This document shows, piece by piece, positions 9,622 through 14,915 of a stretch of 64,000 nt of DNA (positions within the stretch are counted from its first letter, which is position 1; the number at the start of each line of letters is the position of its first letter). The stretch spans positions 55,960 to 119,959 of the forward strand of contig JADHYV010000056.1 in the NCBI GenBank assembly GCA_027604705.1. Reading direction: 5' to 3'. Origin of the DNA: Allomyces arbusculus. Taxonomy: Eukaryota > Blastocladiomycota > Blastocladiomycetes > Blastocladiales > Blastocladiaceae. A program made the translations under genes and the position numbers. The notes beneath the pieces were generated by a model. That model made no database searches and was not told the origin of the DNA. It worked only from the letters and a program-made list of their open reading frames with translations.

Positions 9622-10552
9622 AATTGAAATGCTCGGATCAGTGCAGGAGAATCTGGATTTCGCCAGCTGAGACTGGTTTCGCTCAACCCGTCTCGAGTGA
9701 CGTGCCGCAGCCGTTCCTTGCAATGGTTCCTTGGAGTCACCGCATTTCGCGAGCCCATCGCACGTCCTTGACCGCGCCAAAGACGACGATCCGATATTTG
9801 GTCGCCTCACGGTGTATCAGCGAACGTTTAAGTTGAAAGTTGTGTGAGTTTGGCGCTGAGATCATGTCCATGCGTCGTAGGTGAGATCATGAAGCGTCAA
9901 TACCATTCTGTTTCTTGATGGCTGCCTGTCGGCCATCGATGCGTGTGTCCCACTGTCCATTTTATGCTCGAGCTCCCAGCTGGGTTTCTGGTGCGTTCGT
10001 GCCTGATTCCAACTCCTCGCCCGACGCTTTCAACAATGGTGATGACACAGCACGGCGCACGAACGAGCGCAGCCAACTTGTCGGCTGCGTGCCAACACCA
10101 ACCAGAGCAGTACGCCAAGTCCATACGCCCCAACCCCATTGGTGACGCGGGCGCAACCGCAAGCAGCACCGCGATGCTCGAGACCTCTACAAATCATCAG
10201 CAACACGAATATCAAGTGACGACAGTTTTGATCCCTCTGTGAGGACTTCTTTGATGTGAAGGCAGGAACGATGGAGGCCGACACGATGGAAGCGGGACAT
10301 GATGTGAAGGGTCATCAACAAAGACCTTCGCCAGCACAACTTTCAGAAACTGCCAGAGCGACAAGGCACACACCAACGATTCCAAAGACCAGCCCGTGTT
10401 TTTTGCACAAAATCAAATCACAATTTGAGAACGAAACGCTGCGGCGCCCGAGAGCGCCAAAAAGGAAAATTCAAAAGCGAAAGAAAGATAAAATGCCGAC
10501 AAACGAAAGGGTAGAGATGAAGGGGAGAAAAACACCACACCAGCAGCACCAT
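9622..10552. other. Intergenic, no gene seen
   Basis: Boundary between the F-box-like array and the GC-rich housekeeping island. Open frames here are short and overlap on both strands. The part just past 10400 is the 3' flank of the minus-strand CPA1 gene. Confidence 0.55.
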
Positions 10553-12148
10553 CTACTGCATTGCACGCGCCGACGACACCGCGCCCGCGTTCCGCGCCGC
10601 CATGTAGGCGACAAACGGATCCACCACGGCCTCGGGGGCCGACTTCTCGACGACCTTCTGCTGCGACTGCGACACGGCCATCTGCTTGCGCACCTGGTGG
10701 AACGCGCTGACCTGGGCCGCAAACTCGTCAAACAGGTACATCGTATCGACGGGCCCGCCGCGCGCCTCCGGGTGGAACTGCACCGACCGCCAGACGCCGC
10801 CGCCGCCGAGAATGCCCTCGTTCGACCCGTCGTTGGCGTTGCGGAAATACGCGGCCCAACCCTGCGGCATAACGCGGTCGTCGATCGCGTACCCGTGGTT
10901 CTGCGACGTAATCACGCACTTGGGCACTTTCGACGTCAGGTCGAGGCACGGCTGGTTATGCCCGCGGTTGCCAAACTGCAGCTTGTAGGTCTTGAGGCCG
11001 GCGGCCAGACCGAGCACGTGGTTGCCCATGCAAATCCCGAAGATCGGCGTCTTGGTATGGACCGGGCGCGCGGCCTGCGACTGGAGCACCTGGCGCAGCG
11101 ACGCGACGGCAGCGCCGAGCTGCATCGGGTCGCCGGGCCCGTTCGACAGGAACACGCCGTCGTACTGGTCGACGACCGTGTGCACGGGGAAGTCGTAGGG
11201 CAGGACCGTGACCTCGAGCCCCTGCGCGAGCAAGTGCCGCAGGATGTTGTACTTGAGCCCGAAATCCATGACGGCCACCTTCTTGGCGGCGCCGCGGTTA
11301 TACACGACGGGTGCGCGCACCGACACTTCCGCGACCAAGTTGGTCGCGTTCGGGTCCTCATACGCCAACGGCGCCGACCCGTTGACCGCGACGTGCCCGA
11401 GCTTGGCGCCGCCGTCGCGCAAATGCTGCACGAGCGCGCGCGTATCGACGCCCGAAATCAGCGGCACGCCCTGGGCCTTGCACCAGGCGCCGAGCGACAT
11501 GGCGGCCTCGCGGTGACTGTGCTGCCACGTGTAGGCCTGCACGACCACGGCACGCGCATGGATCCGGTCCGACTCGAACCGCGTCGGCAGGCCGTGCATG
11601 TCGTACTCGGGTTCAGGGACACCGTAGTTGCCCGCGAGCGGTTGCGTGAGGACGAGAATCTGGCCTGCGTACGACGGGTCCGTCAGCGACTCGGGGTACC
11701 CGACCATGCCCGTCGTGAAGACGACTTCGCCGCCGAGCGCGCGCGGCGCGCCGTAGCATTCGCCGTGGAACGTGACGCCATTTTGCAGGTGCAGCGCCGC
11801 AGGGACCGATGTTTCGGGGATCGGGCGCGCGCGAATGACCGGGGGAGCGGGCGCAAAGGCCGCGGCGAGCGGCGTGTTGGCCGAGAGCGTGCCGATCTTG
11901 GGCGCGGCGGCGGGAGCGGGCGGAGCAGGTGCCGAGAGGCGCGTGGTCGTGGTCGCGTTGGGGACGACGGTCGCGAGCGGGCGCACGAAGCGCGGGACGG
12001 TCAGGGCCTTGGTGGCGGCCGACGTGAGGACTGGGAAGCGCGGGGCAGGGAATCAGTGAGCAAGCGAGGCTAATCGGAAAAAGTGAACAGAAAAACGGTA
12101 TAAATACGTACGGCTATTCGCCTTGGTCTTGAGCGTGGAAGCGAACAT
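10553..12148 (-). CDS. CPA1: Carbamoyl-phosphate synthase, arginine-specific, small (glutaminase) chain
   Basis: Glutamine amidotransferase subunit that supplies ammonia to the large chain for carbamoyl phosphate in arginine synthesis. Two exons: 12112-12148 (12 codons plus one base) and 10553-12030, joined over an intron with a gtacgt donor; phase is kept, giving 504 residues. Residues 1-75 are rich in Ala/Ser/Thr/Arg and acid-free at the start (MFASTLKTKANS), a typical mitochondrial presequence. The CPSase small-chain N-domain follows (GECYGAPRALGGEVVFTTGM). The class I amidotransferase domain has the catalytic Cys at about 346 in FGICMGNHVLGLAAG, GNRGHNQP, and His432/Glu434 in QFHPEA. The separate subunit, presequence and GICMGN form match fungal arginine-pathway enzymes rather than the CAD fusion. 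A uORF at 12352-12441 probably controls its translation. Confidence 0.95.
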
Positions 12149-12351
12149 GGTGGTGATGGTGGTGGTTGGTGGTGGTGTGGGGTGGATGGATGAGAGCGGA
12201 GAGAGATGAAAGATGATCACAGTCCGGGCACAATCAGGAAAATCGGCGCGGCGAGATCGTCAAGGAGAAAGATGGAAAGAGATGGAGCGGAGGGGACAAA
12301 AAATGTCAACGAAATCGATGGATGGGCTGGACTTGGGTTGGGGCGAGCTGC

Positions 12352-12441
12352 TTAGCAGGTCTGCGCGGCAGTCTTCCAGACTTGGTCGCACAGGTAGTCG
12401 GCGGAGACGGTCTCTTGGTCGTGCACGTAAGAGAACGACAT
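12352..12441 (-). CDS. Upstream ORF encoding an arginine attenuator peptide (29 aa) for CPA1
   Basis: ATG at 12439-12441, stop TAA at 12352-12354, in the leader of the minus-strand CPA1 gene; 203 bases separate its stop from the CPA1 ATG. The peptide contains SADYLCDQVWK, matching the core of the known fungal arginine attenuator peptides (QDYLSDHLWR in Neurospora arg-2, QDYISDHIWK in yeast CPA1). In those species the nascent peptide stalls the ribosome at its own stop codon when arginine is high and lowers CPA1 translation. No other ATG occurs on this strand between 12149 and 12870, so a scanning ribosome would meet this start first and CPA1 second. Oddities: the tail after Trp-Lys is TAAQTC, so seven residues follow the Trp against five in the two model peptides, and the whole is 29 residues against 24-25. 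Confidence 0.85.
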   Translation of the reverse strand: MSFSYVHDQETVSADYLCDQVWKTAAQTC

Positions 12442-13211
12442 CCACAGCGCGGGTAAAGGCGAGGTGGAAGCGCGGCGAGGCGAGGGGTGTTGGACGACGG
12501 GGAGCGCGGGCGAGGTGGTGTGTCGGTCGCGGGCGCGGCGAGGTCCGAAGGAGCGGATTGGTTGGGTGGTGGGCGGGCTCGAGGGTGGACGAGCTGGCTT
12601 GCAGGCAGGCACTGCGGTGCTTGGAAGGTTGGCTGGCCGGACGACGGTGGTCGGGTCGGGTTGGGTGGGGAGAAGAAGAGACCGGCTGCAGGGGCCGGGC
12701 CGGCTTTTGAAGGACGGACGACGAACAAGGACGAGGCGGGGTTGGGTCGCGGTGCGTGCGGAGGGCGCGGTGGTGCCCCGACGAAAGGCCGTCCCAGCGC
12801 AGAAGCTGCACAGGTGGGAGTCGCGCAATGGCTGATTCGGCCTGATTTGGAAGCGCAGCGTGAATCACCGCATCACATGCGCCGGCACGACCGCGTCTCG
12901 CACCTGTCTCGCACGCTCGCCCACCGCGCGGCAAGCCCTGTCTGCGCCCGCTCGCACCCGCTCGCCTCATGCCGCTCATCGTTGTCGCTGTCGTCGCCCT
13001 GGCTTGCAGGCCCTCCAACTGACCTGTGACGCGGCTCAGGCCGCTCCATCACGGCAAGGACGTGCACGGCGCCTCCTCAGGCGGCATGCCGAACGCTCGA
13101 ATCCCAACACGAAATCCGCATCCGATTGCGCAAAGTCGACACTCCCGCCCTCCAGGATCCTCAATCCCCTCATCAGTTCCCAAGTGCCGCCAGTACACGT
13201 CGTCCCGGCCC
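12442..13211. other. CPA1 upstream region and 3' flank of the chitin deacetylase
   Basis: Very GC-rich, purine-skewed DNA. Long frames exist on both strands (one of about 250 codons on the minus strand), but they are proline/arginine/serine-rich, overlap each other and have no recognisable domain. I treat them as composition artefacts. The CPA1 transcript start should lie here. Confidence 0.55.
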
Positions 13212-14915
13212 CTACCACCCGACGAGCCCCACCGCGACCGCCGCGCCCAGTCCCATTAGCGTCCACCGCGGCGGCGCGGCCCCGAGGACGACCCCACTCA
13301 CATCTGCTGCGCCCGGCGGGTTCACCAACTTCTGCACGGGCGCCGGCTCGAGCGACCGCACGGCGCCGTACACGTCCACGCCCGTGCGCCCATACAGGCA
13401 GTTATCGAGCGTCGTCAGCTGGAACCCTTTGGTCGTAAAGAAATCCATGACCGTCGGCACCATTTCCACGGTCCCGGCCACGAGATCGTGCCCGAGGTGA
13501 ATCAGGTGCGGGCGGCCCGGGTTCTCTTGCATGTATTCCTGCAGCCAGTGCAACACCGAGCTCGGGTCGTTCGGGTAGTCGTAGTCGAACGTGTCGATGT
13601 TCCACATGACAGCTACCAATGGATTGAGGGTGAGTCCGGTGAGACACGGTGTGGAACGCGTGAGAAAGTAAGAGGGCAGGAGAGAGCGGGAGGCCGCACC
13701 TTCTTGGCTGTAGTTGCGCATCGTGTCGAGAATGTCGGCCGTGACCGACCCATACGGCGGCCGCATGAACCGCGGCTTGAACCCGAGTGCTACCACGGTG
13801 TCGGCAAGAGGTGAGTTCCACTCGCCGCTGATTCAAATCGAGACTGCTAGTCTCAAGTGTACCCAAGTAAAACGACTGATCCACTGTCGCAATATCATCG
13901 AGAATCGCCGCCATCGGCTGCCGTGACATGTTGAAGTGCGCGTACCTAGGCACCGCTCCGTCTGTCAATCTCCGAGCCCTCCTACCCACCCAACGCGATA
14001 CACAGCGATAAAGTACGTGTGGCTCGCCAAAATATGGCCCTGCCGCACCTGCGCCAGGGCAATCGACGGGTACAGGTCGACGTTACTGCCGACGACGAAA
14101 AAGGACGCCGTCGCGTTGCGCGCGCGCAGCAGGTCGAGCAATCGCGGGGTCGCCTTGCTCGGGCCGTCGTCGAACGTTAGGACATAGTACCGTTGCAGCG
14201 GGCTCAGCGCCGGGCACGTCGACCGCAGCTGCGTTTCGGCCATGCGCACGCCGTCGGACGCGTAGGCGCAGTCGTAAGGGCAGTTCCAGAGCTCGCCAAC
14301 TAAATTGGGTGGGCGTGGGAGGAGAAAAGGTTCGAGCGAGGTACGTGGAGAGAAGGTGCGGGCGCGGGCGAAGAGGTGGAGTACCTTCACTACACGATCG
14401 GAAGCGCGGGGATGGTGAGAGATCGCAACAACCAGGATCACGACAGCGAGGCCATTCCGTACCAGAACCCGTTCCCGCACATCGGCTGAATCGTCGTCTG
14501 GATCGAGCACGGCGAATTCGAGGAGATCGTGCATGGCACATTCACGTGGCCCGTCGTGCACCCGCGCGCCGCCGCATTTGGGGTCGACTCGCAATACAGC
14601 AGCTTGTGGTAGTTGCACACATTGGGATCTACATTCACCAGCTCCACGGCGTCAGGGTGCACCGATCAGCGACGGCGCGGGAGCGGGCAGTCTCAACGGA
14701 CCATTCGACGGGTAGCACAGCTCCGACTTCCACGTCGACACTTGGCACACTTGCGTGCAGTCAACTGGCGTCGATGACGGGGCCGGGGCCGACGTGGTCG
14801 TTTGTGCGGCGACGCCGCGTGTCAGCAGGCAAACCGATACGGCCGCGACGACAAGAACGCGCGCGAGTAGCCTGGCTGGCAGGCCGCGCGGGCGGGGTGG
14901 CGGCGCAGAGGTCAT
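13212..14915 (-). CDS. GPI-anchored polysaccharide (chitin) deacetylase, about six exons
   Basis: Carbohydrate esterase family 4 enzyme that removes acetyl groups from chitin in the cell wall. Start ATG at 14913-14915, with signal peptide (LLARVLVVAAVSVCLLTRGV then VAAQ). A Cys-rich N-terminal part leads to the NodB-like domain with all five motifs: TFDDGPS, SHTYAH (metal-binding His pair), RPPYGS, DTFDYDY and LIHLGHD. Exons inferred: 14018-14301, 13863-13945, 13700-13789 and 13212-13612 have clean donor/acceptor sites with matching phase. The two upstream exons are less certain: the join near 14640-14705 needs either a small intron or a one-base correction. The C-terminus ends in a hydrophobic stretch (LMGLGAAVAVGLVGW) after a small-residue region, the usual GPI signal. 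Divergent from the CENP-A gene. Chitin is the likeliest substrate but is not proven. Confidence 0.88.

Follow-up and report, generated by a model that had tools for sequence, protein, structure and literature searches.

A putative arginine attenuator peptide with a longer tail in the CPA1 leader of Allomyces arbusculus

The CPA1 leader of Allomyces arbusculus contains a short upstream open reading frame (uORF) whose product joins the conserved core of the arginine attenuator peptides (AAPs) to a longer tail. Read from its sequence, this uORF very probably encodes a functional arginine attenuator peptide, here in a zoosporic fungus. We prefer this reading because the peptide stands out in a profile test from which the window (the whole analysed stretch of 64,000 nucleotides) was left out, because the composition in its frame is coding-like, and because its first half appears to have homologues in two other zoosporic fungi. 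The AAP as a kind is known; the Allomyces case is a variant, characterized by the longer tail, another N-terminal half, and a position outside the Pfam model.

The uORF comprises 29 codons plus TAA and is supported by the ORF list, profile score, and codon-position composition. It maps to 12352..12441 on the minus strand, with the A of its ATG at 12441 and the final TAA base at 12352, and its product is MSFSYVHDQETVSADYLCDQVWKTAAQTC. Residues 14-23 form the core ADYLCDQVWK (12373..12402, minus strand), assigned by alignments and a genome-wide core pattern; the presence of a 29-codon ORF with this core in the CPA1 leader, as put forward in the original prediction, is thereby confirmed. The remainder of the tail past the core Lys, TAAQTC, lies together with the TAA stop at 12352..12372 (minus strand) and is part of a stretch of seven residues following the Trp. 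A spacer of 203 nt without any ATG (12149..12351, minus strand) leads from the uORF stop to the CPA1 ATG, and the interval 12149-12441 given in the original prediction comprises the uORF and this spacer. Minus-strand ATGs in the area are located at 12148 (CPA1), 12441 (uORF), 12873, and 12878, which upholds the earlier statement that no ATG besides that of the uORF lies on the coding strand between 12149 and 12870. If the CPA1 transcript started above 12979, the leader would hold extra upstream ATGs, including that of a 239-codon ORF at 12979.

This 239-codon ORF (12260-12979, minus strand) overlaps the uORF in another frame. Neither this ORF nor the plus-strand ORFs 12213-12710 and 10271-12073 contain a Pfam domain at E<=0.1, so that nothing points to a further gene in the leader. 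The last of these is an open frame of 600 codons antisense to CPA1, probably a shadow of the high third-position G+C of the CPA1 codons. Splice donor patterns, as far as scanned, have zero matches in the 203-nt spacer and a single one in the leader, a weak GTGCGA at 12391 within the uORF. There is no convincing leader intron. Further upstream of CPA1, an open frame with a polysaccharide deacetylase domain (PF01522) is located on the same strand at 13965-14534 (minus strand).

CPA1 itself is composed of two minus-strand exons. Exon 1 (12112..12148) contains the ATG, with A at position -3, and the start of the presequence; it is followed by an intron of 81 nt (12031..12111, GTACGT...CAG) and by exon 2 (10553..12030), which carries the domains PF00988 and PF00117. 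The resulting model is a carbamoyl-phosphate synthase (CPSase) small subunit of 504 aa, whose basic, acid-free N-terminus reads as mitochondrial. The CPA1 of A. javanicus (P0001) reveals a matching start and splice and a near-identical N-terminus (MFASALKSKANSLLTSAATKALTVP vs. MFASTLKTKANSLLTSAATKALTVP). The small subunit encoded in the window stands alone; all other small-subunit matches in the genome fall within one gene on contig C15, in which small- and large-subunit domains share one long frame, i.e., the fused pyrimidine type. A second large-subunit locus is present on contig C14, as expected with separate pyrimidine and arginine enzymes. Because it stands alone beside the fused pyrimidine-type gene, and because of its homologues, we assign CPA1 to the arginine type. 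On the strand of the fused CPSase gene, approximately 3 kb ahead of its first matched exon, C15 also carries an open frame for beta-tubulin (L010, 3-1178, plus strand). When viral contigs were scanned using the CPA1 of A. javanicus, six pattern matches and no relative came up.

At the protein level, CPA1 is 95% identical to that of A. javanicus over the whole length, 66% to that of Blastocladiella over 85%, and 58% to that of Catenaria over 74%. A tree of 32 chosen rows (the window CPA1 plus 31 proteins from the 129 retrieved) groups it with A. javanicus (100/100), within a clade of Blastocladiella, Catenaria, and Allomyces (100/100). The organism probably builds a flagellum, since the genome has matches to the radial-spoke (E 1.2e-86) and RIB43A (E 6.8e-34) families; the radial-spoke family PF04712 is matched at two separate loci (C24:55274-57116 and C20:330316-331404). 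CPA1, with its 95% identity to A. javanicus, and the flagellar families are the basis on which we place the host in the Blastocladiomycota, and the host is thus an early-diverging fungus, the case that the original prediction had supposed.

The core ADYLCDQVWK aligns to QDYLSDHLWR of the N. crassa AAP and to QDYISDHIWK of the yeast AAP. It keeps Asp15-Tyr16, the second Asp (Asp19), Trp22, and a following Lys, i.e., the conserved AAP core. The AAPs of N. crassa arg-2 and S. cerevisiae CPA1 (PF08252) are likewise encoded by short uORFs in the leader of an arginine-type CPSase small-subunit gene, and they share the core D-Y-hydrophobic-(C/S)-D-(Q/H)-hydrophobic-W-(K/R). In yeast this core is closed by WKT, as in Allomyces. 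The predicted likeness of the core to both peptides is well founded, resting on the alignments and on the window-free ascomycete profile. In contrast, the known uORFs have 24-25 codons instead of 29, and they carry T-(S/C)-Q before the core, where the Allomyces peptide shows H..E.V. A further difference is given by the tail, which has seven residues past the Trp versus five in N. crassa and yeast, as in all seven ascomycete AAPs retrieved (P0121-P0127); the Allomyces tail KTAAQTC resembles the yeast KTSSH with two residues added. We know of no requirement for five post-Trp residues in AAPs. The original prediction was right about the longer tail, but the shifted placement of the stalling residues that it deduced need not matter much, as AAP function is described to need conserved residues whatever their place along the peptide (PMC11550727).

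Whereas known ascomycete AAPs match the Pfam model Leader_CPA1 (PF08252), with 53.5-58.8 bits for the four that we scanned, the Allomyces peptide does not: with HMMER filters on, the model found no match to the uORF at E<=10, and none genome-wide. PDB and Pfam searches with the uORF peptide gave no match. A profile search was started from an alignment of two known AAPs and the in-frame translation of 12477-12355 (41 aa). It returned seven ascomycete AAPs, two of which were the query rows themselves, and no AAP from phyla beyond the ascomycetes. Since all seven are ascomycete, the PF08252 model may be too narrow. We therefore call the uORF product an AAP-type peptide rather than a member of PF08252.

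For an estimate of chance similarity we used a profile of the seven ascomycete AAPs only, with the window left out. Against this profile, the uORF reaches 14.1 bits. Its stop-to-stop segment scores 10.5 bits and ranks first among the 2005 six-frame segments of the window, the next one reaching 7.7. Not one of 3000 dinucleotide-shuffled leaders (2993 of which gave any score) attained the 10.5 bits of the uORF segment, and the best shuffled score was 8.7. Along the 4.2 kb that precede the fused pyrimidine-type gene on its own strand, the score is at most 0.9 bits. The codon pattern D-Y-(F/L/I/M/V)-x-D-(H/Q)-(F/L/I/M/V)-W has one match in 25.9 Mb, the uORF itself, with 0.046 expected from the base composition of the window and zero matches for the reversed control; this narrow pattern was fitted after the uORF had been seen, in contrast to the seven-AAP profile, which was not fitted to it. 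The looser pattern DYxxDxxW has a single match in the window, that of the uORF, and none of the 3000 shuffled leaders contains it; the expectation is 0.00026 matches for the leader of 722 nt and approximately 19 per genome.

Codon-position composition points in the same direction. G+C contents at the three positions are 0.52/0.41/0.86 in the uORF, similar to CPA1 (0.68/0.48/0.90) and unlike the uORF flanks (0.69/0.69/0.79 and 0.52/0.62/0.45). When 635 leader windows of 87 nt were scored for CPA1-like composition, the top ten all overlapped the uORF in its own frame, the uORF itself being fourth.

Two proteins carry what appear to be relatives of the uORF. Among the best 120 of 8000 scored CPA1 homologues, the motifs D-[YFW]-x-[SCAT] or D-x-x-W-[KR] occur within the first 90 residues in two cases, at residues 15 and 16, while 50 further motif matches (within 140 residues) lie inside the enzyme proper. 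One of the two is the CPA1 of Paraphysoderma sedebokerense (P0004), with the N-terminus MYSAYTHACEKVQLDYVS...; the other, P0116, is a chytrid-like ENA protein that falls together with Boothiomyces and Globomyces in a clade of four rows (100/100). In a start-anchored, ungapped comparison with the uORF (shifts of up to 3 residues), P0116 scores 40 and P0004 32, the next of these best 120 homologues reaching 21; shuffled N-termini attain these scores in 2 of 20000 (P0116) and 30 of 20000 (P0004) cases. The signature H..E[KT]V..DY.[CS] is common to the uORF, P0004, and P0116, from which it was derived, and is absent from the rest of the 129 retrieved proteins. The likeness concerns the first half of the uORF; both proteins as annotated are devoid of the Trp, and at the second Asp position P0116 has Glu and P0004 Arg. 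When applied to the best 120 of 8000, the seven-AAP profile ranks P0116 first (9.7, the next reaching 3.0), and P0004 stays outside the top eight of the 120, with or without the uORF added.

We read P0004 and P0116 as gene models that probably start at a uORF and splice over its end. P0128 and P0129 (Pseudogymnoascus) are precedents for this reading, as these gene models fuse an AAP to CPA1, both with the Pfam domain Leader_CPA1. Since P0128 and P0129 have an AAP-like start from which the model continues into CPA1, annotated CPA1 N-termini could be searched for AAP uORFs. Of 135 candidates from a search with five AAP-like peptides joined into one query, four passed, P0004 and P0116 (both in the query), P0128, and P0129, and no third zoosporic case was revealed. 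The other 118 of the best 120 homologues have no such N-terminal extension; little can be read from this, as a uORF has no place in a correct CPA1 model.

Alternatively, the likeness may have arisen by chance in a GC-rich leader, or by convergence without common descent. The shortness of the core speaks for this, as does the fact that the exact genome-wide pattern and the three-way signature were drawn up after the sequences had been seen. However, 0 of 3000 shuffled leaders match the uORF score with a profile that is devoid of the uORF, the composition around the uORF is coding-like, and apparent homologues sit in the matching place in two other lineages; we therefore regard such an origin as very improbable. 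Equally improbable is that the uORF is spliced in frame to CPA1 in some transcripts and the peptide is conserved as part of an N-terminally extended isoform. P0004 and P0116 are indeed annotated with an extension joined to CPA1, and the weak GTGCGA could serve as a donor. That donor is poor, though, the annotated A. javanicus CPA1 begins at the CPA1 ATG, and the fusion is likely an annotation artefact, because AAP-CPA1 fused models also occur in Pseudogymnoascus (P0129).

Less remote, but still unlikely, is the view of a translated uORF of AAP descent in which arginine sensing was lost through changes in the tail or elsewhere, leaving a constitutive repressor or a trigger of nonsense-mediated decay (NMD). 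Both the two additional tail residues and the lack of a match to PF08252 would fit such a loss. On the other hand, Asp-Tyr, the second Asp, and Trp are all retained, and AAP function is reported as independent of position (PMC11550727). In addition, Asp15 is present as the counterpart of the Asp whose D13N exchange in a reporter AAP abolishes arginine regulation (PMC7969011); P0121, the yeast peptide, has its core Asp at residue 13.

Under the preferred reading, that of a functional attenuator, the start contexts would bear on the flow of ribosomes. The uORF ATG has T at -3 and T at +4, the CPA1 ATG has A at -3. Start-context strength follows a general rule, not one derived from the Allomyces genome, and by this rule the uORF AUG looks weak and the CPA1 AUG better, which would fit leaky scanning. 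At low arginine, CPA1 is expressed via leaky scanning past the uORF, according to the review PMC11550727. The original prediction called translation of the uORF unavoidable; this is overstated, because the context looks weak and leaky scanning is described for CPA1 in that review.

Along this line, part of the scanning ribosomes would bypass the weak-looking uORF AUG and reach CPA1. In those that translate the uORF, the nascent core with Asp15-Tyr16, Asp19, and Trp22 would be placed in the exit tunnel. With abundant arginine, such a ribosome would stall at or near the end of the uORF, block the scanning ribosomes behind it, and lower CPA1 synthesis; stalling may also reduce mRNA stability through NMD. 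This is modeled on known AAPs: at high arginine, the nascent peptide stalls ribosomes at the uORF stop and translation of the main ORF falls (PMC7969011). For Allomyces we infer translation of the uORF, stalling, its dependence on arginine, and NMD. As the tail is two residues longer, either of two arrangements would follow. If termination is decisive, the core would be shifted two residues deeper into the tunnel; if the spacing from the core is decisive, arrest would occur during elongation while the P site holds Gln27, whose position corresponds to the last residue of the yeast AAP. Moving the stop codon forward leads to earlier arrest in N. crassa (PMC13183943), which bears on shorter rather than longer tails.

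To our knowledge, eukaryotes have few nascent peptides that are known to act as sensors of a small metabolite within the ribosome, and the AAP is one of them. Another case of arginine-linked control is reportedly given by the TgApiAT1 uORF of Toxoplasma, which acts on an arginine transporter gene; it concerns another gene in another phylum than the Allomyces uORF and is likened to it by description only. In Cryptococcus, a conserved uORF is present on the same gene, CPA1; it is strongly occupied by ribosomes and NMD-sensitive, the main ORF is repressed, and a fivefold rise is seen without Upf1 (PMC7049704). Cryptococcus belongs to the Basidiomycota within Dikarya, whereas the Allomyces lineage lies outside Dikarya, and the two are compared here by the description of the uORF, not by peptide sequence.

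The AAP cases that we met in PMC7969011, PMC4505036, PMC7049704, PMC11550727, PMC5487733, PMC5640933, PMC13183943, and PMC10501990 are ascomycete or basidiomycete. Our literature searches, whose scope did not extend to the Hood 2007 survey, returned no attenuator-peptide report for Blastocladiomycota, chytrids, Rhizopus, or Allomyces. A uORF search for Blastocladiella led to papers on other subjects. In PMC4505036 the mention of Blastocladiomycota concerns antizyme, and in PMC7049704 that of Rhizopus concerns tRNA synthetases.

Our findings suggest that the sensor goes back further than yeast and bread mould, the fungi on which it has been worked out. More tentatively, arginine sensing by a CPA1 leader peptide may predate the split of Blastocladiomycota, Chytridiomycota, and Dikarya, with a zoosporic subfamily marked by H..E[KT]V..DY.[CS] and with a longer tail in Allomyces that turns termination arrest into elongation arrest; we hold this wider view to be possible rather than probable. 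If true, a member from the Blastocladiomycota together with the chytrid-like hints would date the sensor to the early fungi, and the residues that survived would be Asp-Tyr, plus the second Asp and Trp in Allomyces. The longer tail would then be a natural test of the C-terminal spacing tolerated by arrest, and the current Pfam model would miss a non-ascomycete member.
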